Virus record (IMG/VR): IMGVR_UViG_3300038423_000168
Span: 1-47,331 of that record
Strand: one strand, 5' to 3'
DNA from: a virus
Length of the DNA stretch: 47,331 nucleotides
Notes under the pieces: model-generated
Seen by the model: the letters and a program-made list of their open reading frames with translations, nothing else
What the model was told of the DNA's origin: nothing
Database searches by the model: none
Shown here: positions 17,382 to 46,100 of the stretch, one piece after another
Layout of the letters: each line of letters begins with the position of its first letter
Numbering within the stretch: the first letter of the stretch is position 1
Position numbers and translations under genes: made by a program

Positions 17382-18089
17382 ATGGTATTTAGAATATACG
17401 CAATGAAAATCAGAAGTCACACCACCGAGAAAAGCTGGATTGTCTACCTTATAACCAACAAAGTAAATGGGAAGGTGTATGTTGGTCAAACATCCTGTGG
17501 TTTGAAAAGGCGATGGGCACTCCATTGTTCCCCCTCGGCGGGAAACAAACATCTGTTGAACTCTATTCGTAAATATGGCCGTGATTCCTTTGAAATCAGC
17601 ATTATCCACGGTCCGGGGCTTACCTTTGAAGAATCTAGCACCTTAGAGAAACGGGAAATATCTAAGAGGAAGTCAACCGACCACCAATTCGGATACAACC
17701 GAAGTACGGGGGGTGAAGGAGGTGCTAATGGTATGAGATTCCCCTCCGAAACTTACCCCAAAAGATTGGGTAGAAAATGCTCTGTCGAAACCATCAAAAA
17801 ACTACGGGATGCTGCAATTGGCAGAAAGTGCTCACCCGAAACAAGAGTGAAATTGAGGCTGGCACTAAAGGGTAAGAAACCATCTGCTAAGGCTATAGAA
17901 AACTCCCGTAATGTGTGGATTGGAAGAAAGCACTCACCGGAATCGAAAAGAAAAATAGGGGCGGCACAAAGGGAAGTTAGGGAGGTAAAACCGAGAACAC
18001 CTGAAACAATTACTAAACTGAAAGCGGCTTGGAAACGACGTAAATTAAAAAACCCAGAAATGGTGTTCCCGTTTCAAAAGGAAAAATAG
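17382..18089 (+). CDS. GIY-YIG homing endonuclease with NUMOD3-type repeats
   Basis: The GIY-YIG nuclease domain lies at about residues 20-110: WIVYLI, then KVYVGQTS, a catalytic Arg in LKRRW and a Glu around the EKREI helix. It is followed by several short NUMOD3-type DNA-binding repeats (GRKCSxET, GRKHSPES). At 235 residues it is the normal size for free-standing phage GIY-YIG enzymes, which nick or cut intron-less or marker alleles and copy themselves in. It ends two bases before the helicase gene, whose homologues may be its target. Starts at 17382 and 17403 are both possible and neither has a strong ribosome site. Confidence 0.85.
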   Translation: MVFRIYAMKIRSHTTEKSWIVYLITNKVNGKVYVGQTSCGLKRRWALHCSPSAGNKHLLNSIRKYGRDSFEISIIHGPGLTFEESSTLEKREISKRKSTDHQFGYNRSTGGEGGANGMRFPSETYPKRLGRKCSVETIKKLRDAAIGRKCSPETRVKLRLALKGKKPSAKAIENSRNVWIGRKHSPESKRKIGAAQREVREVKPRTPETITKLKAAWKRRKLKNPEMVFPFQKEK

Positions 18090-18090
18090 T

Positions 18091-19686
18091 ATGTATCTAA
18101 CGGAGTTATGCCGAAGGTTGTGTACGCAGGATTTGTACCCATTTGTTCTACAAAACAAGAAAAAATTGATGTGGACCATCAAGTACTCCTTCACCATCGA
18201 CTACATGCCAGATAGCGATGAAGTGGTTACCAGCAGAACCATGAAGGCTATATGGAAATACATCACCCGCTTCAAACGCCTTCCCGTGGGTCCGCAGGAC
18301 GTTAAGGGGTACATCGTCACCAACCCCGACCACATCAAGGAGTTCTCTCGTGGGGGTGAGGATGGTGAAAAAGATGAAACCACGGAAACCCTGCAACAGC
18401 TTGATACCTTGACCACATGGAATCCCCCCACGGAATCCGTCCGGGGGCTGGAATCCCTCATGGTTCTGGAGAACGCCTTCTCCAAGGTCCGGGGAGCTTG
18501 GCACTCTGTCGCTGCTAACCAATACTCCAAAATTGCCAACGGTATGGACTCCTTCAAGTGGTTTGAGAAGGGGGAGAAAAAGGAAGAGCGGGGTCCCGCT
18601 CCTGCCATGCGTTGGCTGCGCATGAAGTGGTTGGAAGACTACACCGACGATACACCGCCTGTAGATGGATTCCTGCACCAAAACATGCAGGTAGTCCGGG
18701 AGGGTTTTGCCAACCTGATGAACGAGCAGAATGAGAACGGTCGGATGCTGCTTGGTCTGGACAACGTTGACAAGTGTGTGGTCATTGGCAAACAGACAGA
18801 CAACCGCTTCATCGGCATCGTCGGGCAGGCAAACGATGGCAAAACCACACTTGCCAACTACATAGTCTACAACTGGTTACGCCAAGGATTCAACGGTCTA
18901 TATGTTTCCACCGAGCACACGTCCAAGCGAATTTGGGACGTGATGACTTACTTGCATTCCTCTCACCCGGATTATGGTGAGCTTGTCCTCCCTCCCACCA
19001 AAGAATGGGAAAACCGGAACGTCACTTCGGAACACATCCGGCACATGCAGGATATCTGCTTCGACATCGAAAATGGAAGGAACCTGCCGGGAAAGCTCGA
19101 AGTCAAAGAGTTCCCCAATCGTGACTGGGATTCCATTGAAGACTGGCTCAAGCTCTATCACAGCAAGAACCACTATGACTTCCTGCTTTTGGACTACATC
19201 ACCCGGCTGGAGATTCCCGGTGACCCCCGGTGGAAAGACCAAGGGATGAAGGAACTCATTCACCGCATCCAGAAGTTCACCCGCCAGTTTGACGAGAGCC
19301 GGGGCATCATCGTCATGAGTCCCGTGCAGATTACCAAGGAGTCCTACAAGGAAGCTATGAAGGGGGACTTCAAAGAGGGAATTGGGCACTACACACTGGA
19401 TGCTATCCGCACATTTTCCGAACTGAAAGACGACATGGATGTCATCCTCACGGTGTGGTCGGACATCGAAATGAAGGCACCGGAACGCAACGAAATTGAA
19501 ATTGGATGCGTAAAAAAGCGTGTCGGAGCACAACCTTTGGCGCAAATTGCGGTAATATCTCCTTGGACAGGTGCATTCGTCCGTAAGGGTGCCGCCGCCT
19601 CGGAACAACGTCCCCTGACCACGGAGTTGAAGCAGGTGATTCAGGAGGTAAGAAACATTGATTCCGAGATGGCTGATACACTTTAG
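18091..19686 (+). CDS. DnaB-like replicative helicase / RecA-fold ATPase
   Basis: This 531-residue protein has a RecA-type ATPase core in its C-terminal half. The Walker A motif is GQANDGKTT (residues ~245-253), the Walker B strand is YDFLLLDYI (around residue 365), and further conserved motifs follow (IIVMSPVQI, then a C-terminal VKKRVGA segment like the arginine-finger region of DnaB). The N-terminal ~200 residues are unlike classic DnaB N-domains and may bind another primosome component. It would unwind DNA at the phage fork. AAAGGAAA lies before the ATG at 18091, inside the end of the endonuclease gene. An in-frame ATG at codon 27 is a possible alternative start. Confidence 0.75.
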   Translation: MYLTELCRRLCTQDLYPFVLQNKKKLMWTIKYSFTIDYMPDSDEVVTSRTMKAIWKYITRFKRLPVGPQDVKGYIVTNPDHIKEFSRGGEDGEKDETTETLQQLDTLTTWNPPTESVRGLESLMVLENAFSKVRGAWHSVAANQYSKIANGMDSFKWFEKGEKKEERGPAPAMRWLRMKWLEDYTDDTPPVDGFLHQNMQVVREGFANLMNEQNENGRMLLGLDNVDKCVVIGKQTDNRFIGIVGQANDGKTTLANYIVYNWLRQGFNGLYVSTEHTSKRIWDVMTYLHSSHPDYGELVLPPTKEWENRNVTSEHIRHMQDICFDIENGRNLPGKLEVKEFPNRDWDSIEDWLKLYHSKNHYDFLLLDYITRLEIPGDPRWKDQGMKELIHRIQKFTRQFDESRGIIVMSPVQITKESYKEAMKGDFKEGIGHYTLDAIRTFSELKDDMDVILTVWSDIEMKAPERNEIEIGCVKKRVGAQPLAQIAVISPWTGAFVRKGAAASEQRPLTTELKQVIQEVRNIDSEMADTL

Positions 19687-20832: not shown

Positions 20833-21082
20833 CAGTATTATTCTATTCCGGGCCTTTGACCGGAACCCAAAAAAATATTTTTCATGACTACTTCAAACCC
20901 ACTATTGACTTCAATTTCCCCACTCCTCGAAATCCCCATTGGTGCTGTGATTTTTTTGTGCCCGGAGAGGTTTGCAAGTAATTTTGCATTTTCACTACCG
21001 GACCCATAAACAGCCGCAAGTATGACCGCAGACGTTCCAAATCCCGACAGAAGGACCGCAGGCTAACTTACAGGAGAGTCCT
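20833..21082 (+). promoter_or_regulatory. 250-base gap before nrdJ: CAGTATTAT motif, hairpin, short reading frame
   Basis: The gap holds a CAGTATTAT motif (20833) that recurs before other genes. It also holds a 6-bp hairpin TTCCGG/CCGGAA (20846-20865) followed by A- and T-runs that may be a weak terminator. A 14-codon reading frame (21022-21066) contains two copies of GACCGCAG. A GGAGAG ribosome site lies at 21072. I looked for cobalamin-riboswitch boxes, since the gene is B12-dependent, and found none. Confidence 0.4.
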
Positions 21083-36486: not shown

Positions 36487-37938
36487 ATGCGCAACCCACT
36501 GTTGTGTCCAAAGACGGCTATCTTGACTTCACCCAGTTATCTGGAGTCTCTCTATTCCCTCCTTTCGGGTGACCAAAGAAATGACCGGTCCGCTTATCTC
36601 GAAGCCCGTCAGCATCTTGGCTCCGCCATCAACACCGTATCGGCAAAGATTCCCCCCAAGAGTCGGTTGACCAGAGATATCCGCTTTGCTCGCTGGGATA
36701 TGGAGACCGCTAACGCCTTCGCCAAATCGGGAGATTGGGGCGCAGCAGCAGATAGCCAGCTACACGCTGTCTGGAAACTCCAGAACGTCGTAGCGGCCCT
36801 CCAGCGCAGCAAAAAGGCATACGGGTATGATGTTTGTCTTACCGCTGACTCTCAACTTCCGCTGCTGGACGGAACAGAAATAGCCATAGTTGACCTTCTA
36901 GGAAAGGACCATTTCTGGGTTTATTCAATAAACGAGAAGGGAATGCTTAGACCCGGATACGGGCATGACGCCCGACTGGTTGAAAAAGATGCCCCCCTAC
37001 TAGAAGTAAGGTTGGACAACGGTAAAACTATAAGGTGTACCTTTACCGAGAGATTTATGCTAAGAGGGGGAGGATACAAACGGGCAGCAGAACTTATCCC
37101 CGGAGATTCCTTGATGCCTCTCTACAGAGACTTGGCTCCGATTGCTTTTGAGGGTAATGAATATGAAAGGACATACGAGCCGGGTAGAGAATCGTGGAAG
37201 TTTACCCATCGTTTTGCGGAAGCTAGATGTCCAAAGGGGTATGTAAGACATCATAAAGATTTGAATCGCTTCAACAATTCCCCTGACAATCTCGCTGTTA
37301 TAACTTGGGAAGAACATCAGAAATTGCATCAAGAGTTGGGAGTTCCAGTTACAGATAAAGGGCGGACGGCACGTAGCCGTAACATGTCCAAAATTAACTC
37401 TGACCGCAAGGGGAAACCACGTCCTTGGGCACACTTTCCTCATCCGTGGGTGAATAAAGAAGAAAAGGCCAATATTTTGGTGAAATACAGGGAGTTGTTG
37501 GGGGAAGAGGGGTTTGTTGTTGCCCAGAAGCACAGAAGTCAACTAGCTACCCACAAACGCTGGCACACAGACCGCCAGATAGTCTCTGCCACTTGTTTGC
37601 TTTGTGCCTCCGTTAATCATAAGGTGGTATCAGTCGCATCTGCTGGTACTGCTGATGTATATGATTTTATTGTTGATAAGTATCATAATTTCGCTTTGAG
37701 TGCCGGGGTTTTTGTACATAACAGTGGGCAAACACAGGGAGAAATTTTCAACGGCTCGGAGGCAATTGCCAACCGGGAAAACCAGAAGAATATTGACGAC
37801 ACGGCACAGCCGTTTGAGCAGCACCAGAATGTTAAAAATCCACTAAATCTAACAAGGGACTGGGAGGCGGAGAACGACTACCCCTCGCTCGCTGAAAAGA
37901 AGAGCAAGCGGATTCACTGGCCTCCCCGACTGAGATAA
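36487..37938 (+). CDS. Phage protein of unknown function with HNH-bearing intein
   Basis: The 483-residue precursor consists of an N-extein of 116 residues, an intein (117-412) and a C-extein of 71 residues starting at Ser413. The spliced protein is 187 residues, with a helical N-part ([37 protein letters not shown]) and a polar, Asn/Gln/Glu-rich C-part. It directly precedes the fibre genes and its stop overlaps the first fibre start (TAATG), so it may be a virion or assembly protein. Inteins usually sit in conserved enzyme sites, so this host protein may be more important than it looks. Confidence 0.75.
36835..37722 (+). other. Intein with HNH endonuclease domain
   Basis: 296 residues from Cys117 ([13 protein letters not shown]) to Asn412 (GVFVHN), followed by Ser413. 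Splicing blocks are visible: the N-terminal Cys, a block-B-like segment ([11 protein letters not shown]), block F ([16 protein letters not shown]) and block G VHN|S. In the middle an HNH-type domain ([27 protein letters not shown]) replaces the more common LAGLIDADG enzyme. The DNA is more AT-rich than the flanks. Confidence 0.88.
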
Positions 37939-39290
37939 TGCCAGCTATCAGAGTCATAGACCCGGTCAACCCCAACTCCGTTTTCACTATCGACGGCATC
38001 CTCGTCACGTATGTGAAGCCGTGGAATAATACCATCACCTATCAGTTTGGCAACGCCCTCACCTACAACGGCTCCTCGTGGATTTCGCTCCAGAACAACA
38101 ACCGGGGCAACACCCCCTTCGTCGGCTCCACGTGGTGGGGTCTCATTGCCCAGAGTGTGACCGGCACGACCGGCCCTACGGGGCCGCTCGGTGCCACAGG
38201 ACCGGGAAACTTTACAGGGTATACCGGCTACAGCGGCCCCAGCGGTTTCACGGGTTACACTGGTCCGGGCAATTTTACAGGATATTCGGGTCCGACCGGT
38301 TACACTGGAGATTCTGGGCCGACCGGACCTACCGGACCCGGCATAACCGGATATACAGGAACGACCGGACCTACTGGGCCGGGTAATTTTACCGGTTTCA
38401 CGGGCTATACGGGGGACAGCGGCCCCACGGGTCCCGGCAACTTTACCGGATATTCGGGGTATACAGGACCGATTGGGCCAGCTGGGTATACCGGCTATAC
38501 CGGTCCTGAAAGCACGGGGTACACAGGCTTTACAGGAGCCAGTGGATTCACCGGACCCACCGGACCGGGGAACTTCACGGGTTACACTGGTTACACGGGA
38601 ACGAGCGGCTACACAGGTCCAACTGGACCCGGAAATTCCACAGGTTATACGGGATATTCGGGGGCTACAGGGCCTACCGGACCGGGCAATTTTACTGGGT
38701 CTACAGGCTACAGCGGATATACGGGAGCGACCGGTCCGGGCAATTTTACAGGTTACACAGGATACACGGGTTATACCGGAGTAACTGGTTACACTGGACC
38801 CAGTGTCACCGGATATACGGGCTATTCAGGATACACAGGTTACACAGGACCCGGTAATTTTACGGGTTACTCAGGTTACACCGGCTACACGGGACCGATT
38901 GGTTATACGGGTTACACAGGCTATACGGGACCTTCATCGGGAGCCATTGTTTTTGTTATTGACGGCAGAGGTTCGGTGCCTGCCACAGGGTCGTATGGGT
39001 ATGTTCAAGTTCCCTACAACGCAACCATCACAGGTTGGACATTGCTCGCCAACGCCTCGGGCACAGCACAGATTACCATCAAGAAATGTACTTATGCAAG
39101 CTTCCCCACGACCGCCAGTATTGTAGCGTCTGCTCCTCCCAACTTAAGTGGGCCACAGCAGAATAATACCAGCACTGCGGTAGATACGTGGACAAGGACC
39201 CTGACGCTGGGGGATGTTTTAGAGTTTAACCTTGACGCCGCCGCAACCGTCAACCGACTGGCGCTGATGCTGGATATTACGAGGAGCTAA
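37938..39290 (+). CDS. Collagen-like tail fibre protein 1
   Basis: This 450-residue protein has three parts. Residues 1-75 include a carbohydrate-binding-module-like motif ([16 protein letters not shown]...STWWGLI, like CBM5/12). Residues ~77-333 are about 85 collagen-type Gly-X-Y triplets built of GPTG, GYTG, GYSG and GPGNFTG units. The last ~115 residues are a beta-rich head ([18 protein letters not shown]...) seen in several phage fibres. It would form a trimer and bind a cell-surface sugar. The start overlaps the previous stop (TAATG). Its Thr- and Tyr-rich stalk offers many glycosylation sites, in keeping with the glycosyltransferase downstream. Confidence 0.85.
38166..38938 (+). repeat. 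Collagen-like coding repeat
   Basis: Nine-base Gly-X-Y units with many synonymous changes (GGTTACACTGGT, GGCTATACCGGT, GGATATTCGGGG). The protein is far more conserved than the DNA, so the repeat is under selection at the protein level and synonymous change may limit slippage. A sister array lies at about 46350-47030. Confidence 0.85.
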
Positions 39291-41599
39291 TGGCGAACAC
39301 GCTCATTTGCGGGTTCGAGATGGGGAGCACCAACGAAGGTCTTCCAAGTGGTGGAACTGCGACGGTTGAAGTCATTGCCGCCGCCCGCCGCACGGGAAAC
39401 TATGGTCTGCATGTGAAAGCGGCAGCGGGTCAGACCGGATATTTGTACTTCTACCAAGAAACCGCTGTTGGTGTTTATGCTCAGTTTGTTCAGAGCTACC
39501 GATTTTACTTTCAGCTTTTGCACCTCCCCGGCACTACCGTTGTGTTTGCTCAGGTATATAACAGCGCAAACACCCAATCATATATTGGCATCAACCCAAG
39601 CGGCACCCTATATTGTCAAACGACTACAGGTAACACATCTGCCAACAGCACTCAGGCTCTTACGGTAGATGGCTTGTGGCATCTTATTTCTCTCAACGTT
39701 GGCTATAATGCGGGTGCAGGAGCGCAACTCTATGTGGACGGGGTTTTATGGGCTTCTATTGCCACGGGAACCCCTAATCCAACTTACAATACAGAATTCT
39801 CAGTAGGGCTTCAAGGCACAGACACTAACGGAGGTTTTGAAGCCTACTATGACGACATTCTGGTGGACAATGGTTCTGTGACCTTGGGGCCGGGCGGTGC
39901 GGTCTTGCTGCCACCGATTGCTGACTCCTCCGTGGGTACTTGGACAGCGGGGGCAGGCGGGGCAACCAATCTCTATAACGCCCTCAAGACCTCGCCGCCT
40001 GCGGGGCTTGCTGATGCCTCGGCCACCAACACCAGTCAAATTCACAATTCAAACGCCACGGGCAATCAGGATTACAAAGCGCAGTGTATGTCCTACCGAG
40101 CCGCAGGCGTAGCCTCCAACGCTACGATAAATGCCGTCATGGCTGTGGTGAATGATGGTACACCGACGACCTCTGCCCGTGCTGGTGGAGTGTGGATAGA
40201 CTCGAACCCTGCACAAAGTGCAGGTGGGAAAAGCTTCGAGTATGGCTATAGTGGGGGATTGGGGGCAATTGGAACTTTCCCTACGGGATGGAATACGCAT
40301 TACGGGCCGTGCATCCAATCCCCTAGTGTCACGCTTTCCACTGCTCCTGTTGTTGCGGTTCGTAAGACCGATGCGAATGCTCAGGTGGTTGACGTGGACT
40401 TTCTCGGCATCTACGTCGATTTCCAGAATGGCCCGTCGCAGCATGTGGTGATTTCGGGCTTGGAGATGGGGTCGCTATACGAAGCAAACTCCTACAGTGG
40501 GTCAGGAACCATTGAAGTCATACCCGCCGCTAAACGTACAGGCAATTATGGACTTCATGCTAAGGCTGCGGCAGGACAGACACCCTACATCACTTTTACA
40601 TCCCTCGATGGAAACGGGTCAAATATCATCCAGTTGGGGAGTGCCCGCTTCTATATGAAGCTATTAAGTCTTCCCGGCACGACTCTTGCTATGTTTGGTG
40701 AATTCGGAAATATTAATAGCTGGATTATTGGTATCAATCCCACTGGAACGATTTTCGCTGGCTCATCGGCTGGAGGGGTATCGCCCAATAGCACTAATGC
40801 TCTCTCCGTAGACGGCCTCTGGCATTGTATCGCTGCTAATGTAGGCTATAACAACGGTCAGGGAATCCAACTCTACGTCGATGGGGTTCTGTGGACTAGC
40901 AAAAACACCTTTCCTTTTCTCAGTGGGTTATACAACCTTTGTTTAGGGTGTAGGACTGTTGACACCGTAGGCGGTTTTGAAGCTTATTTTGATGATTTAC
41001 TTGTAGACAATGGGTCAGTCTTACTTGGTTTTGGGCAATCGGTTCTGCTTCTTCCTACGGCAGACTCCGCTATCGGTTCATGGACTACGGGTAATGGGGG
41101 AACGTCAAACTTATTCAATGCGGTCAAAACCATCCCTCCTGTGGGTGTGGCTGATGCTAGTGCTACCAATACCAGTCAAATTCACAATGTCAACGCTTCC
41201 GGTAACCAAGACTACAAAGCTACTTGTCAGACTTATTCTTCTGTGGGAATAGACGGCAGTTGTATCATCAATGGAGTTATGGGATTGACAAACTGGGGGG
41301 CGGGGGTCGCCGGGACAAAGGTCGTCTCGGTGTGGATAGACTCCAATCCACCGCAAATAGCGGGTGCTGTGACAGGGAGATACGGCGGGGGTGGAGGCAT
41401 TGGCACCTTTCCATCCAATTGGGTAACCTACAATGGTGTGATCGCAGCTTTACCATCGCTTACGTTAACTTCTGGCCCCGTGGCGGCGGTGCGTAAAGTG
41501 ACTTCCACTGTTTCTGCTGTTGATGTGGATTTCCTCGGTGTATATGTGGACTTCCTTCCCGGCACACCGGGTGTATCCAGCGCCTATTTCCTTGACTAG
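39290..41599 (+). CDS. Duplicated lectin-like virion protein
   Basis: This 769-residue protein is an internal tandem duplication of a ~384-residue module. Each module has a concanavalin/LamG-like jelly roll (LICGFEMGS..., GLHVKAAAGQT, LYVDGVLWAS, FEAYYDDILVDNGSV) and a second beta domain (ADSSVGTWTAG...NLYNALKT...ADASATNTSQIHN...VDVDFLGIYVDF). The copies agree strongly at the ends and differ in the middle, where ligand loops would lie. The ATG overlaps the fibre stop (TAATG). A receptor-binding or capsid-decorating role is inferred from fold and place. No enzyme motif seen. Confidence 0.75.
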   Translation: MANTLICGFEMGSTNEGLPSGGTATVEVIAAARRTGNYGLHVKAAAGQTGYLYFYQETAVGVYAQFVQSYRFYFQLLHLPGTTVVFAQVYNSANTQSYIGINPSGTLYCQTTTGNTSANSTQALTVDGLWHLISLNVGYNAGAGAQLYVDGVLWASIATGTPNPTYNTEFSVGLQGTDTNGGFEAYYDDILVDNGSVTLGPGGAVLLPPIADSSVGTWTAGAGGATNLYNALKTSPPAGLADASATNTSQIHNSNATGNQDYKAQCMSYRAAGVASNATINAVMAVVNDGTPTTSARAGGVWIDSNPAQSAGGKSFEYGYSGGLGAIGTFPTGWNTHYGPCIQSPSVTLSTAPVVAVRKTDANAQVVDVDFLGIYVDFQNGPSQHVVISGLEMGSLYEANSYSGSGTIEVIPAAKRTGNYGLHAKAAAGQTPYITFTSLDGNGSNIIQLGSARFYMKLLSLPGTTLAMFGEFGNINSWIIGINPTGTIFAGSSAGGVSPNSTNALSVDGLWHCIAANVGYNNGQGIQLYVDGVLWTSKNTFPFLSGLYNLCLGCRTVDTVGGFEAYFDDLLVDNGSVLLGFGQSVLLLPTADSAIGSWTTGNGGTSNLFNAVKTIPPVGVADASATNTSQIHNVNASGNQDYKATCQTYSSVGIDGSCIINGVMGLTNWGAGVAGTKVVSVWIDSNPPQIAGAVTGRYGGGGGIGTFPSNWVTYNGVIAALPSLTLTSGPVAAVRKVTSTVSAVDVDFLGVYVDFLPGTPGVSSAYFLD

Positions 41600-41730
41600 G
41601 CTTTACTAAGAAGAAATATAGAATAATCCAAAATTTCAGTATTATTACTTAGCATTACTATAGCCAGTTATACGTGGTTACATATAGCTACTTATGGTTA
41701 TATGTAGTTGTGACCGGTTAAGGGAGAATC
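41600..41730 (+). promoter_or_regulatory. AT-rich spacer with CAGTATTATT motif and hairpin
   Basis: Between the duplicated lectin gene and the next leader peptide lie CAGTATTATT (41635), a hairpin ACATATA/TATATGT (41680-41705) and repeated TAGTTATAC/GTAGTTGTGA-like runs. No reading frame of note. It probably carries the promoter for the leader peptide and GIY-YIG gene. Confidence 0.4.
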
Positions 41731-41790
41731 ATGGGTGTAAAGTTTTCGGTCCGTTTTTTGTCATATTTGAACTATCTAAAACACTTGTAG
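41731..41790 (+). CDS. 19-residue leader peptide upstream of a GIY-YIG gene
   Basis: MGVKFSVRFLSYLNYLKHL begins behind AGGGAGA (41721). Its last third is coded by the left arm of the hairpin that blocks the endonuclease ribosome site, and its TAG stop overlaps the next ribosome site (TAGGGAG). Translating it should melt the hairpin and let ribosomes start the endonuclease gene. Confidence 0.6.
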   Translation: MGVKFSVRFLSYLNYLKHL

Positions 41791-41803
41791 GGAGATAGTT
41801 CAA
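41767..41803 (+). promoter_or_regulatory. Hairpin over the GIY-YIG ribosome site, containing the TTTGAACTA motif
   Basis: TTGAACTATCT (41767-41777) pairs perfectly over 11 bp with AGATAGTTCAA (41793-41803). The ribosome site AGGGAG (41789-41794) is at the foot of the right arm and the ATG follows immediately at 41804. Confidence 0.75.
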
Positions 41804-42451
41804 ATGTTTGTGTATTTAATATTTAATCGAATAAGCCTTAAGCTATACATCGGTAAGACCACGACATCCAACCTGGGTTTGTATCTAAAAAAGAAAATTA
41901 GAGACGCTCAAAGGGGAACTTATCCCGGTAGGTCACACCTCTTTTCTGCAATGGAAAAGTACCCATCTACAGCTTGGGGGATAATCCCGCTTATCTCAAA
42001 TCTTACCACTAACGAGGAGCTTTGTTATTGGGAAACGGTTTTAATTAAAGCATTTAATACCCGTTGCCCGGAAGTTGGATACAATATCTGTAAAGGTGGA
42101 GAAGGATGGACAGGAAGACATTCCGAAGAATCACGAAGAAGGATTGGAGAAGCCACTAGGAATAGACCCGGTCCGTGGCATAATAGGCCAATGTCCAAAG
42201 AACATAGAAGGAAGCTAGGAGCAACCCATAAAGGTCATCCCAGTGGGATGTTGAATAAACACCACTCCGAGGAATCCCGCAAAAAGATGAGCAATGCCAA
42301 AAAGGGTAAACCCAGCCCTTGGAGGGGGAAACACTTTTCTGCCGAATCCCGTAAAAAGTTAAGTATTTCCCTTAAGGGGAAACCATGGACAGAAAGGCGG
42401 CGCAAGGCGCAGGAGTTGAAAAGGAGAGCAAGTGAGACCACCAAACTTTAG
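41804..42451 (+). CDS. GIY-YIG homing endonuclease with NUMOD3-type repeats
   Basis: This 215-residue protein has the GIY-YIG domain at residues 1-100 (FVYLIFNR, LYIGKTTT, and Glu in CYWETVLIKAF) and four or five NUMOD3-type repeats (GRHSEESRRRIGEATRN, HHSEESRKKMSNAKKGK). The C-terminus is very basic. Its last 20 bases overlap the start of the polyglycosyltransferase gene. Expression is probably limited by the hairpin and leader peptide upstream. Confidence 0.85.
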   Translation: MFVYLIFNRISLKLYIGKTTTSNLGLYLKKKIRDAQRGTYPGRSHLFSAMEKYPSTAWGIIPLISNLTTNEELCYWETVLIKAFNTRCPEVGYNICKGGEGWTGRHSEESRRRIGEATRNRPGPWHNRPMSKEHRRKLGATHKGHPSGMLNKHHSEESRKKMSNAKKGKPSPWRGKHFSAESRKKLSISLKGKPWTERRRKAQELKRRASETTKL

Positions 42452-45400
42452 CGTTTGTTTGATTGCAAGAAACGAAGCTCCGAACCTCTGGAGAATCCAC
42501 AAATCACTCAAAGAATTTCAGAAACGTGACGGCGAGGTGGTCCTCGTGGACACTGAGTCTACTGACAACACTCCGGCTGTAGCTCGTGCTTTAGGCTTCA
42601 CTGTTTTCGAGGTGGGGGAGAAGTTTATCTTCACCATCCCGGAGAACCTTGCCAAGGCCATCAACACTCAGTTTGTCGTACCGCCCGAAGCTCCCATTGT
42701 CGCCGCTGGCGATAAGCTCTTTGATTATGCCGCCGCCCGCAATTATTCCGCTACCATGGCGAGCAACGATGTGGTATCCATGCCGGACTGCGATGAGCAA
42801 TATACCCATCTGGATATCGACGCCATTGAACGCACCATTGACCAAGGGTTCCAGCAGATGGAATTTCACTTCATCTTCTCCCACTATCCCAACGGTCAAC
42901 CCGCTGTTCAGTTCCGGCAATGCAAGATGTACGACCGGCGTATCATGCACTGGCAGGGCATCGTCCATGAGGTTCTGGCGGGAAACGCCAAGCGCACCTA
43001 CCTACCGCCCAACGTGCTTCTCTTGGAACACTTCCAAGCCCCGCAGTCACACCGCACCCGGTATCTCGCCGGGCTGTCTCTCGATTGCTACCTCAATCAG
43101 GACAACGACCGTAACAGCCACTACCTCGGACGAGAGCTTATCTGGAACGGTCATCCCCGGTCAGCCATCAAAGAACTCACTCGGCATGTCAACATGAACC
43201 GTTGGCAACAGGAGCGGGGGCAGTCCATGATTTTCATCGGGGACGCCCACATGCAACTGGGGGAGGATGACAAGGGCATCGAATCTTGGCACAAAGCCAT
43301 CCAAATAGATGATACCCGGCGTGAGCCGTGGCTTCGTCTGGCGGATTACTACTGGAAGAAGAACAATCCGCAGCGGGTAGCCTGCTATTGTATGGCTGCT
43401 TTGGAAATCCCACCTAACGATTGCTATTGTAACGTGGGAGCGCATTACACGTATGAGCCGCATGAAAAACTTTACTGGGCGCTCTGGTGGCTGGGCGACC
43501 GGGAGAGGTCGAAAGAACACTGGAGGAAGGCGTTCGCCTACGACCCGACTAACCCCAAGTATCTTGCCGACAAGCAGTTCTACGAGCCGACTAAATATGA
43601 TTATCAAATGCCCGGAGGAGGTCAAGCCGCAGACGGCGGGGGAATCCAAGGATGGATGACCCACGGCGAGCTTGAATGGTTGTACCATCAGGCGCAACGG
43701 GAAGAAATCCAAACCATCCTCGAATTGGGTAGCTGGAAAGGCCGGTCCACCCATGCTTTGCTTTCCGGCTTGAACGGCAAGGGCCTGCTTACCGCCGTAG
43801 ATACATGGAAAGGCTCGGTTGACCCCCGTGACCAAACCAACGCCATGGCAAAGCAGGAGGATGTCCTCGGCGAGTTCAAGAAAAACGTCGGGGAGTTCAA
43901 GAACCTCGAAATCTGTCAGATGGAGAGCGCAGCGGCAGCGGAGAAGTTCCGGGCCGAGGGACGCACGTTTGACATGGTGTTTATCGACGCCGGTCACACT
44001 TATGAGGAAGTCAAGAGAGATATCGAACTCTGGCGTCCACTTGCCAAGGTCATTCTATCCGGGCATGATTATACTAATGTTTGGGAAACCGTTAGAAAAG
44101 CAGTCGATGAGCACTGTGGGCGGACCTACCATGCCGAGAGCATTTGGTATTTGCCCGTTGAACCATTTCCACAAATCAAAGGTACTTATTTCAAATCCCA
44201 CGCTGAGATGCAGGAGAAGATTGAGAAAGGTGAGCCATTCTCCTATGTCAAGTGGAATGACGGGGAACAGCAGTGTATCGAAGGCGTAGAGGGGGCAACG
44301 TGTGACGGGCAGGCGTATAGTTTCGAGCTTAACTTAGCACTTAGGAAAGCTTACAACTTTCTCACCACTCTCCAGAACGTATACATTAGCAACTGGAAAG
44401 AGTGGTTAGATGATAACCTCAATGACGGCGGTATACTTCTGCATAGGGAGAAGCGAGACCTCCAGCCCCTACACGATTTCTACAAGGCCATAAAGGAGAG
44501 CGGAGTACAGAAGTTCCTCATCGCCCCGGCGAAATTGCAGGGCGCTGCCGACATGCTCAACGCTGAACTTATTGAGGTTCCCGAGCATGATGCATGGAGC
44601 AAGTATAAGGAAATCAAGGATGCCATGCTATCCAAGGTTCATACCCATGGCATCTTTCTGTTCAGTTGCGGGCTGATAAGCAAGGTGCTCATCGCTGATG
44701 CCCTCACGGCGGAGAAGGACATTTGCTGTCTCGATACCGGCAGCAGCTTTGACCCTATTTTCCTCGGACAAACCCGGACTCTACAGGCTCCGCAAAGAGA
44801 GCTTCTGGACCTGTATGCCGACCTGCTCCCCGAGCAAAAGCAGTATATTCCCAAGAGCATTTTCACCATCTGGTTGTCAGAGAAAGAAGGCTTGCCGCCG
44901 CTCGTGGAGAAGTGTGTCAAGAGCCAGCAGATTCCCGGCTACGAACACAAGGTCTTGGGCCTAACCGATTGCCCCAAGGGTATCCCCTATCTGGATGCCG
45001 CACTAGCTGCCAAGAAGTGGGTCAAAGCAGCGGACTACCTGCGCATTTGGTGGTTGAAGGAGTACGGCGGCATCTATGTCGATTCTGACATGGAAATCCT
45101 GCCGGACAGGAACTTCAACCGTTTGCTTGGCAACTCGTTTTTCGTCTGCCGGGAAGACAACGGTTTTATCGCCAATAGTCTCATCGGGGCGAAGAGGGGT
45201 CATCCCATCCTTGCGGAACATCTCGCCGAAGTGGGGGCCAAGTTCAAGGGTGATGATGACTACATTTTCCAAGCAGCACAGGAAATCCTCACCCCGAGGA
45301 TAAGCAGTGCAGCACCCTCAGACCTGACAGTCAAAACTCTTCCCGCTCATGTCTTCTGTCCCTATAACCACCAAAATGGGGAGATTGATGTACGGGATGA

Positions 45401-46100
45401 CACCGTGGCTTTCCACCACTTTGCCAAAGCGTGGATTAAGGAAGACTACACTCGGGACTTCCTTCCCCGTGTCGCCGTCCTAATACCCTCGCTGGGACGC
45501 CCGGAGGGCCTCCAGAAGTGTTTGGAGTCCGTAGACCACCTCTACTACCCCAAGCACTTGATTAAGGCATTCGTGGACGAAGGCGAGGGCACGGTAAGCC
45601 AGAAGGTCAACCGGCTCGCCGCCGCCAACCCGGACTTTGACGCTTACGTGTATGCGGCCAATGATATGGAGTTCGACCCGTGGTGTGTGTACCGGGCAGT
45701 CAAAGAAGGTCAGGGCAACCCACCCAAGGCTCACCCCTTCGAGACCCCGCCGCATTATCCCTTCGTCAAGGGATTGGTATCCTTCAACGCCGGACCGGTG
45801 TACCCGGATGAGGGGAACATCTGCGAACATTTCCTCATCAGCCGGGACTTGTACTTGAAGCTGGGGGAAATTTTCTCCGAGAAGTTTCACCACGTTGGCG
45901 TGGATAACCTTCTGTGGGTAAAGGCCAAGAAGCTTGGTCAGGTACTTCACTCTGAAACGGCAAAGATAACCCACCACCATTTCAGCAAGACTCACGTGAT
46001 GGATGCTATCTACGAGAAGGGTTGGTCACAGGTGGATTCCGACCGGGCTATCCTCGCTCAAGAACTCAAAAAATTGGAAGAAACTCCCACTGCAACGTAA
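42432..46100 (+). CDS. Multidomain glycosyltransferase-methyltransferase fusion
   Basis: This 1222-residue protein joins at least five modules. First is a GT2 glycosyltransferase (FSVCLIARNEAPNLW, VLVDTESTDNT; ~1-200), then TPR-like helices (~215-390). A SAM methyltransferase follows (LELGSWKGRSTHALL at ~429, VFIDAGHTYEEV at ~515), then a domain like GT_D/DUF1792 (~590-790). Next is a GT32-type sugar transferase (IPKSIFTIWLSE, then YVDSDMEIL with DxD at ~881), and last a GT2-like domain (VAVLIPSLGRPEGLQ from ~1014). Start is GTG at 42432 behind AAGGAG, inside the GIY-YIG gene. It sits between fibre genes, so it probably glycosylates and methylates virion fibres. Confidence 0.8.
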   Translation: MRPPNFSVCLIARNEAPNLWRIHKSLKEFQKRDGEVVLVDTESTDNTPAVARALGFTVFEVGEKFIFTIPENLAKAINTQFVVPPEAPIVAAGDKLFDYAAARNYSATMASNDVVSMPDCDEQYTHLDIDAIERTIDQGFQQMEFHFIFSHYPNGQPAVQFRQCKMYDRRIMHWQGIVHEVLAGNAKRTYLPPNVLLLEHFQAPQSHRTRYLAGLSLDCYLNQDNDRNSHYLGRELIWNGHPRSAIKELTRHVNMNRWQQERGQSMIFIGDAHMQLGEDDKGIESWHKAIQIDDTRREPWLRLADYYWKKNNPQRVACYCMAALEIPPNDCYCNVGAHYTYEPHEKLYWALWWLGDRERSKEHWRKAFAYDPTNPKYLADKQFYEPTKYDYQMPGGGQAADGGGIQGWMTHGELEWLYHQAQREEIQTILELGSWKGRSTHALLSGLNGKGLLTAVDTWKGSVDPRDQTNAMAKQEDVLGEFKKNVGEFKNLEICQMESAAAAEKFRAEGRTFDMVFIDAGHTYEEVKRDIELWRPLAKVILSGHDYTNVWETVRKAVDEHCGRTYHAESIWYLPVEPFPQIKGTYFKSHAEMQEKIEKGEPFSYVKWNDGEQQCIEGVEGATCDGQAYSFELNLALRKAYNFLTTLQNVYISNWKEWLDDNLNDGGILLHREKRDLQPLHDFYKAIKESGVQKFLIAPAKLQGAADMLNAELIEVPEHDAWSKYKEIKDAMLSKVHTHGIFLFSCGLISKVLIADALTAEKDICCLDTGSSFDPIFLGQTRTLQAPQRELLDLYADLLPEQKQYIPKSIFTIWLSEKEGLPPLVEKCVKSQQIPGYEHKVLGLTDCPKGIPYLDAALAAKKWVKAADYLRIWWLKEYGGIYVDSDMEILPDRNFNRLLGNSFFVCREDNGFIANSLIGAKRGHPILAEHLAEVGAKFKGDDDYIFQAAQEILTPRISSAAPSDLTVKTLPAHVFCPYNHQNGEIDVRDDTVAFHHFAKAWIKEDYTRDFLPRVAVLIPSLGRPEGLQKCLESVDHLYYPKHLIKAFVDEGEGTVSQKVNRLAAANPDFDAYVYAANDMEFDPWCVYRAVKEGQGNPPKAHPFETPPHYPFVKGLVSFNAGPVYPDEGNICEHFLISRDLYLKLGEIFSEKFHHVGVDNLLWVKAKKLGQVLHSETAKITHHHFSKTHVMDAIYEKGWSQVDSDRAILAQELKKLEETPTAT

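Follow-up and report, generated by a model that had tools for sequence, protein, structure and literature searches.

The window analysed here is a virus record of 47,331 nt (47 kb), and the locus described below has been sequenced in three nearly identical copies, the same 6.6 kb being present in two other records with one mismatch. A homing endonuclease gene (HEG) of the GIY-YIG/NUMOD3 type lies there between the gene for a tail-type protein and a glycosyltransferase gene, preceded by a 19-codon frame and a hairpin. The features, in order along the window, are:

39290-41599, + strand: gene for a LamG-domain tail-type protein of 769 aa, the upstream gene; its stop is 131 nt before the stub ORF
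41638-41649, + strand: promoter-like motif AGTATTATTACT, preceding the severed glycosyltransferase start; contig L012 has this motif as well, 43 nt 5' of its uninterrupted gene
41720-41726, + strand: AAGGGAG, the Shine-Dalgarno belonging to the severed glycosyltransferase start; GGAGAATCATG is common to the window and L012
41731-41790, + strand: the apparent leader ORF of 19 codons, made of about 7 glycosyltransferase codons (41731-41750) and 12 cassette codons; stop TAG at 41788-41790
41765-41777, + strand: hairpin left arm, 13 bp and perfect, extending to 41763; coded within the stub ORF
41778-41792, + strand: hairpin loop, holding ACACTTGTAGG (a variant of the family loop motif, not AGTATTA) and the start of the HEG Shine-Dalgarno
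41793-41805, + strand: hairpin right arm, extending to 41807; the HEG Shine-Dalgarno GGAG (41791-41794) lies partly within it, as do the first two letters (AU) of the AUG
41804-42451, + strand: GIY-YIG/NUMOD3 homing endonuclease (HEG), 215 aa
42421-42434, + strand: putative new glycosyltransferase ribosome site and GTG start, AAGGAGAGCAAGTG, within the 3' end of the HEG
42432-46100, + strand: gene for a glycosyltransferase/methyltransferase-like protein of 1222 aa, picking up again at F-S-V-C-L-I-A-R-N-E-A-P (from 42447)

Of central importance is the comparison with phages in which the transferase is uninterrupted. The 317 kb phage contig L012, which has no HEG, encodes a transferase 97% identical in amino acids over the first 356 residues; it reads GGAGAATC ATG GGC GTA AAG TTT TCG GTT TGT CTC ATA GCA AGA, that is MGVKFSVCLIARNEAP, and starts exactly at the position of the stub start, with the same ribosome site. 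The window reads GGAGAATC ATG GGT GTA AAG TTT TCG GT and then diverges from L012, the DNA identity to the uninterrupted gene being 94.6% over 41714-41750; past the HEG its transferase resumes as N FSVCLIARNEAP, and reads NFSVCLIARNEAP from the GTG at 42432, which lies in the last HEG codons with AAGGAG five nt 5' of it. The transferase of L022 (63% identical) is likewise uninterrupted (...GVRFSVCLIARNEAP). Since both relatives are uninterrupted and the window sequence diverges and then resumes, the HEG has landed within the 5' part of the transferase gene; what had looked like a leader is the severed start of that gene. By this alignment the insertion falls after about codon 7, and the transferase would now be made from GTG 42432 with an altered N-terminus. 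The site is, moreover, a repeated target, since L013, whose transferase is 76% identical, has a different GIY-YIG gene (632-1276; 32% identical) at the same point; that gene begins on ATGGGCGTA, which matches the codons with which the transferase itself starts, and a TTG that overlaps the stop of the GIY-YIG gene serves as the new transferase start. A scan of genome contigs for the glycosyltransferase returned no relative.

Joined to the downstream frame, the stub would give back the uninterrupted protein, as it would in an intron or a translationally bypassed insert, with the stub serving as the 5' part of a full-length MGVKFSVCLIA... product. We regard this as extremely improbable, as no Rfam family is found at E <= 1 in 41300-42700, the cassette, with only about 53 nt ahead of the HEG AUG and nothing beyond the gene, is too small to hold a group I intron, and the downstream frame is provided with a ribosome site and start of its own. 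To our knowledge there is no precedent for a translational bypass of some 700 nt. An HEG encoded in a group I intron is likewise rejected, there being no Rfam match at E <= 1 and no room for a ribozyme core.

The product of the HEG contains NUMOD3 (PF07460) in two stretches, at 64.3 bits against a cut-off of 20.4. The GIY-YIG domain (PF01541) was found in all 5 of the family members scanned (best 6e-6), the window protein scoring 20.8 bits, just below the 22.6 cut-off; the match to the PHROG homing endonuclease is at 2.4e-19, and that to I-TevI structures is weak. In the alignment based on this weak I-TevI match, Glu77, which corresponds to the catalytic Glu of I-TevI (E75), is invariant in 68/68 family members. 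The position of the catalytic Arg of I-TevI (R27) is occupied, in the same weak alignment, by Tyr27 in 68/68, with an invariant Lys31 nearby; the active site of this family may be an unusual one, or its nucleases may be inactive or re-wired. Two other elements were seen in the window: a second GIY-YIG/NUMOD3 gene (17382-18089), directly 5' of a STAND/KaiC-like ATPase gene at 18091, and an ORF with an intein splicing domain and an HNH_3 endonuclease (36487-37938).

The sequence-only reading of this DNA had reported an 11-bp perfect hairpin, with the next ribosome site in its right arm and the ATG directly after it. The perfect hairpin is indeed present, but its stem is 13 bp long (41765-41777 / 41793-41805, loop 15), or 15 bp when a G-U pair and an additional A-U pair are counted, and then covers the whole HEG AUG; the GGAG is only partly in the right arm, with half of it in the loop, and the AUG (41804-41806) does not follow the stem but lies within its base. 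The Shine-Dalgarno and AUG are thus buried in the window copy much as in the T4-type lock. Folded alone, the hairpin has an MFE of -16.8 kcal/mol (z = -3.65); the longer fold of 161 nt is unremarkable overall (z = -0.6), and only the local hairpin stands out in it. It is also the longest perfect inverted repeat in the 47 kb among those with arms within 60 nt, and it is not a chance structure, because equivalent hairpins recur in relatives.

Relatives of the HEG, 42-47% identical, are found at other sites in the same phages, and the scans yielded 131 loci with 68 distinct 5' regions at many insertion sites in environmental phages; a second phage-collection search, with an HEG relative as query, gave distant matches only. 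Most of the 68 distinct loci have a stem with the Shine-Dalgarno in its right arm, which reaches up to or into the AUG. The best stem at the HEG start scores 9.0 on average for these 68 loci vs. 5.2 +/- 1.4 for dinucleotide shuffles, and a score of at least 8 is reached by 66% of the loci vs. 4% of the shuffles; several relatives have weak stems, and 32/68 individually reach p <= 0.02. When 47 start regions were aligned by sequence the arms were out of register, and for this reason covariation was counted only on the 14 sequences that align in register. Pairing in the stem of these 14 amounts to 93%; three pairs differ on both sides, a C-G pair near the loop is broken in 4/14, and the covariation score, reached by 0/500 shuffles, is lost when the arms are slid; in this subset, then, the stem is conserved by compensatory change, as would be expected of a T4-type lock. 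A covariance model built from the same 14 sequences picks out only HEG starts in 418 kb at E <= 1, several of them at loci outside the training set. Given the family-wide stems, the covariation and the covariance-model matches, the hairpin belongs to the cassette and not to the insertion site, and the earlier suggestion of a T4-type hairpin over the HEG ribosome site is borne out.

Two individual relatives deserve mention. The closest HEG relative, in L042 (1471-1501, 2364), is 61% identical over the N-terminal 119 aa; there the upstream gene's TAA opens the left arm, and the HEG stop overlaps the next gene's ATG, with the ribosome site inside the HEG. In L032 (G001:C1:7518-8147) the frame is broken near its start and the hairpin is kept, in either a decaying copy or an assembly error.

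An inverted repeat of this kind might also act as a DNA operator or a transcription terminator instead of an RNA lock, and I-TevI is described as also being a transcriptional autorepressor at an operator (PMC2988022; reference list of PMC3014915). We consider such a role improbable here. The arm sequences differ among relatives while the pairing and the position over the AUG stay, which fits RNA pairing better than a fixed protein site; a terminator is rejected, since no T-run follows the stem, which the terminator scan passes over.

The 19-codon frame itself is as first described: it runs from ATG to TAG with the product MGVKFSVRFLSYLNYLKHL*, is preceded by a good ribosome site, continues across the hairpin's left arm, and has a stop that overlaps the AGGGAG (41789-41794) of the next ribosome site. 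It had been read as a coupling leader peptide that would add a further layer, and the good ribosome site, the passage through the left arm and the stop overlapping the HEG Shine-Dalgarno are what one might expect of a 19-codon ORF selected to couple the HEG to upstream translation. Such a purpose-evolved leader now appears very improbable. The uninterrupted relatives had already weakened the case, the start and first codons being those of the severed transferase. Conservation of the leader in relatives, as in an evolved leader-peptide attenuator, is likewise missing: among the 58 relatives in which an upstream ORF of at least 100 codons ends near the HEG start, none has an upstream gene passing through the hairpin, the stop lying 3-69 nt before the left arm in 57/58 and inside it in 1/58, so that a stub reading through the hairpin is unique to the window within this set. 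Nor is the openness of the frame remarkable, since a 12-codon stretch of this composition is open with P = 0.44 and two of the three reading frames of the cassette 5' end cross the left arm. The TAG, for its part, sits in a loop motif, TTGTAGG/TTATAGG, that is common to the HEG's nearest hairpin relatives. The apparent leader is, by these comparisons, the 5' end that the downstream glycosyltransferase gene has lost, followed by 12 cassette codons, and not an evolved leader peptide.

With the stub unique, its frame open by chance and its TAG part of a common loop motif, the coupling arrangement needs no selection; coupling in the window is physically plausible and site-specific, and probably an accident of insertion. 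Among the relatives the stop of the upstream gene lies a median of about 12 nt from the hairpin, and in many of them a terminating ribosome might come into contact with the left arm.

The loop is also of interest for what it may say about transcription. The motif [AG]GTATT[AT] occurs in the loops or 5' regions of 32/68 family members, compared with 1.7 in shuffles. In 200 kb of related phage (L171-L180), 14 of the 27 occurrences of AGTATTA are intergenic (P = 3e-5), and upstream of genes the sense strand is favored by 10 vs. 1. AGTATTA is thus likely to be a promoter element of these phages, and there is therefore a close parallel with I-TevI. AGTATTA(T) is found in the window at 20834, 25436, 31031, 36073 and 41638, and octamers of the GGTATACTG type are enriched upstream of genes in L171-L180, perhaps as an extended -10 promoter. 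The idea that 5' stem-loops follow AGTATTA was dropped, the signal being weak (4 cases against an expected 1.5).

These observations bear on the strongest alternative, according to which the HEG would be expressed much as I-TevI is: a promoter in the loop would make late transcripts that lack the left arm and leave the ribosome site free, and translation of the stub would be irrelevant. Late promoters are placed in this way in I-TevI, segB and Aeh1 mobE, and the loop motif, promoter-like in related phage, is present in nearly half of the family. We take this as a real but lesser possibility for the window copy, whose loop has ACACTTGTAGG, a form that never occurs between genes in 200 kb of related phage; a scan of 41400-42500 found no sigma-70-like promoter. 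An internal promoter is doubtful here because the loop has ACACTTGTAGG and not AGTATTA; since there is at the same time a clear AGTATTAT at 41638, upstream of the severed transferase start, the HEG at this site is probably carried on read-through RNA with its lock intact.

The reading that we favor, and consider likely, is that a GIY-YIG cassette with its own RNA lock has inserted in the glycosyltransferase gene, and that at this site the stub may open the lock. The cassette has entered about 7 codons into the phage gene, and its stem-loop would bury the Shine-Dalgarno and AUG of the HEG on any transcript from an upstream promoter, most likely holding the HEG low on read-through mRNA. The beheaded gene start keeps its promoter-like motif, ribosome site and AUG and now encodes the 19-codon stub, and the 3' end of the HEG would supply a new ribosome site and GTG for the glycosyltransferase. 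Ribosomes translating the stub should cross the left arm and stop inside the HEG ribosome site, 13 nt before the AUG, leaving the lock open, and HEG synthesis would then follow initiation at the old glycosyltransferase start.

More tentatively, we suggest that a mobile HEG has here made the start it severed serve as a key, driven by ribosomes, to its own lock and has given the gene a new start, with HEG expression tracking initiation of the captured gene, all within a large non-T4 GIY-YIG family that has a covarying hairpin over the start codon and the phage's promoter motif in the loop. Hairpins over the ribosome sites of HEGs, gene-splitting HEGs and upstream coupling are each known in T4-like phages (PMC2988022); a limited literature search found no description of a family-wide covarying lock outside T4, or of a lock behind a severed start with a new start downstream. 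That the lock, with its covariation, accompanies dozens of insertions of one GIY-YIG family outside the T4 group suggests that such elements generally depend for their survival on, among other things, a portable RNA lock. The window copy amounts to a natural experiment, in which the lock stands behind the stub of a translated gene and a close relative, L012, has the empty allele, and whether upstream translation picks the lock is directly testable with it.

In leader-peptide attenuators of the erm and trp type, a short ORF overlaps an RNA structure that controls the next start. The short ORF of the window likewise overlaps an RNA structure over the next start; in contrast to theirs it has no stalling motif or sign of selection, and is evidently of gene-fragment origin. 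Coupling to upstream translation is known in T4 from the UAAUGA overlap of nrdA and mobE and from the clamp-loader genes (PMC2988022), and there, as here, the upstream frame ends at the downstream ribosome site. In the window, however, the upstream frame is a severed gene start, a gap of 13 nt takes the place of a stop/start overlap, and a hairpin would have to open.

Aeh1 mobE in nrdA and T4 mobA in the topoisomerase gene have been described as making "genes in pieces" (PMC2988022). The window HEG likewise splits a coding sequence that apparently stays usable, and Aeh1 mobE also has a hairpin over its ribosome site; unlike those cases, the cut in the window lies about 7 codons from the start, so that only a stub is lost, the 3' end of the cassette would give the new ribosome site and start, and the stub passes through the lock. 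The closest comparison is with the T4-type HEGs whose ribosome sites are sequestered by hairpins, namely I-TevI, I-TevII, I-TevIII, segB and Aeh1 mobE (PMC2988022). T4 endonucleases with hairpins of this kind escape by means of late transcripts whose starts lie within the hairpin region. Common to these and the window HEG are a stable stem-loop burying the Shine-Dalgarno and AUG of a phage HEG on read-through mRNA and, in much of the window HEG's family, a promoter-like element in the hairpin region. This family's motif, on the other hand, resembles AGTATTA and not the T4 TATAAATA, with the window copy lacking a clear one, and its members are free-standing GIY-YIG/NUMOD3 genes of non-T4 environmental phages, in which the hairpin is conserved and covarying at many insertion sites.
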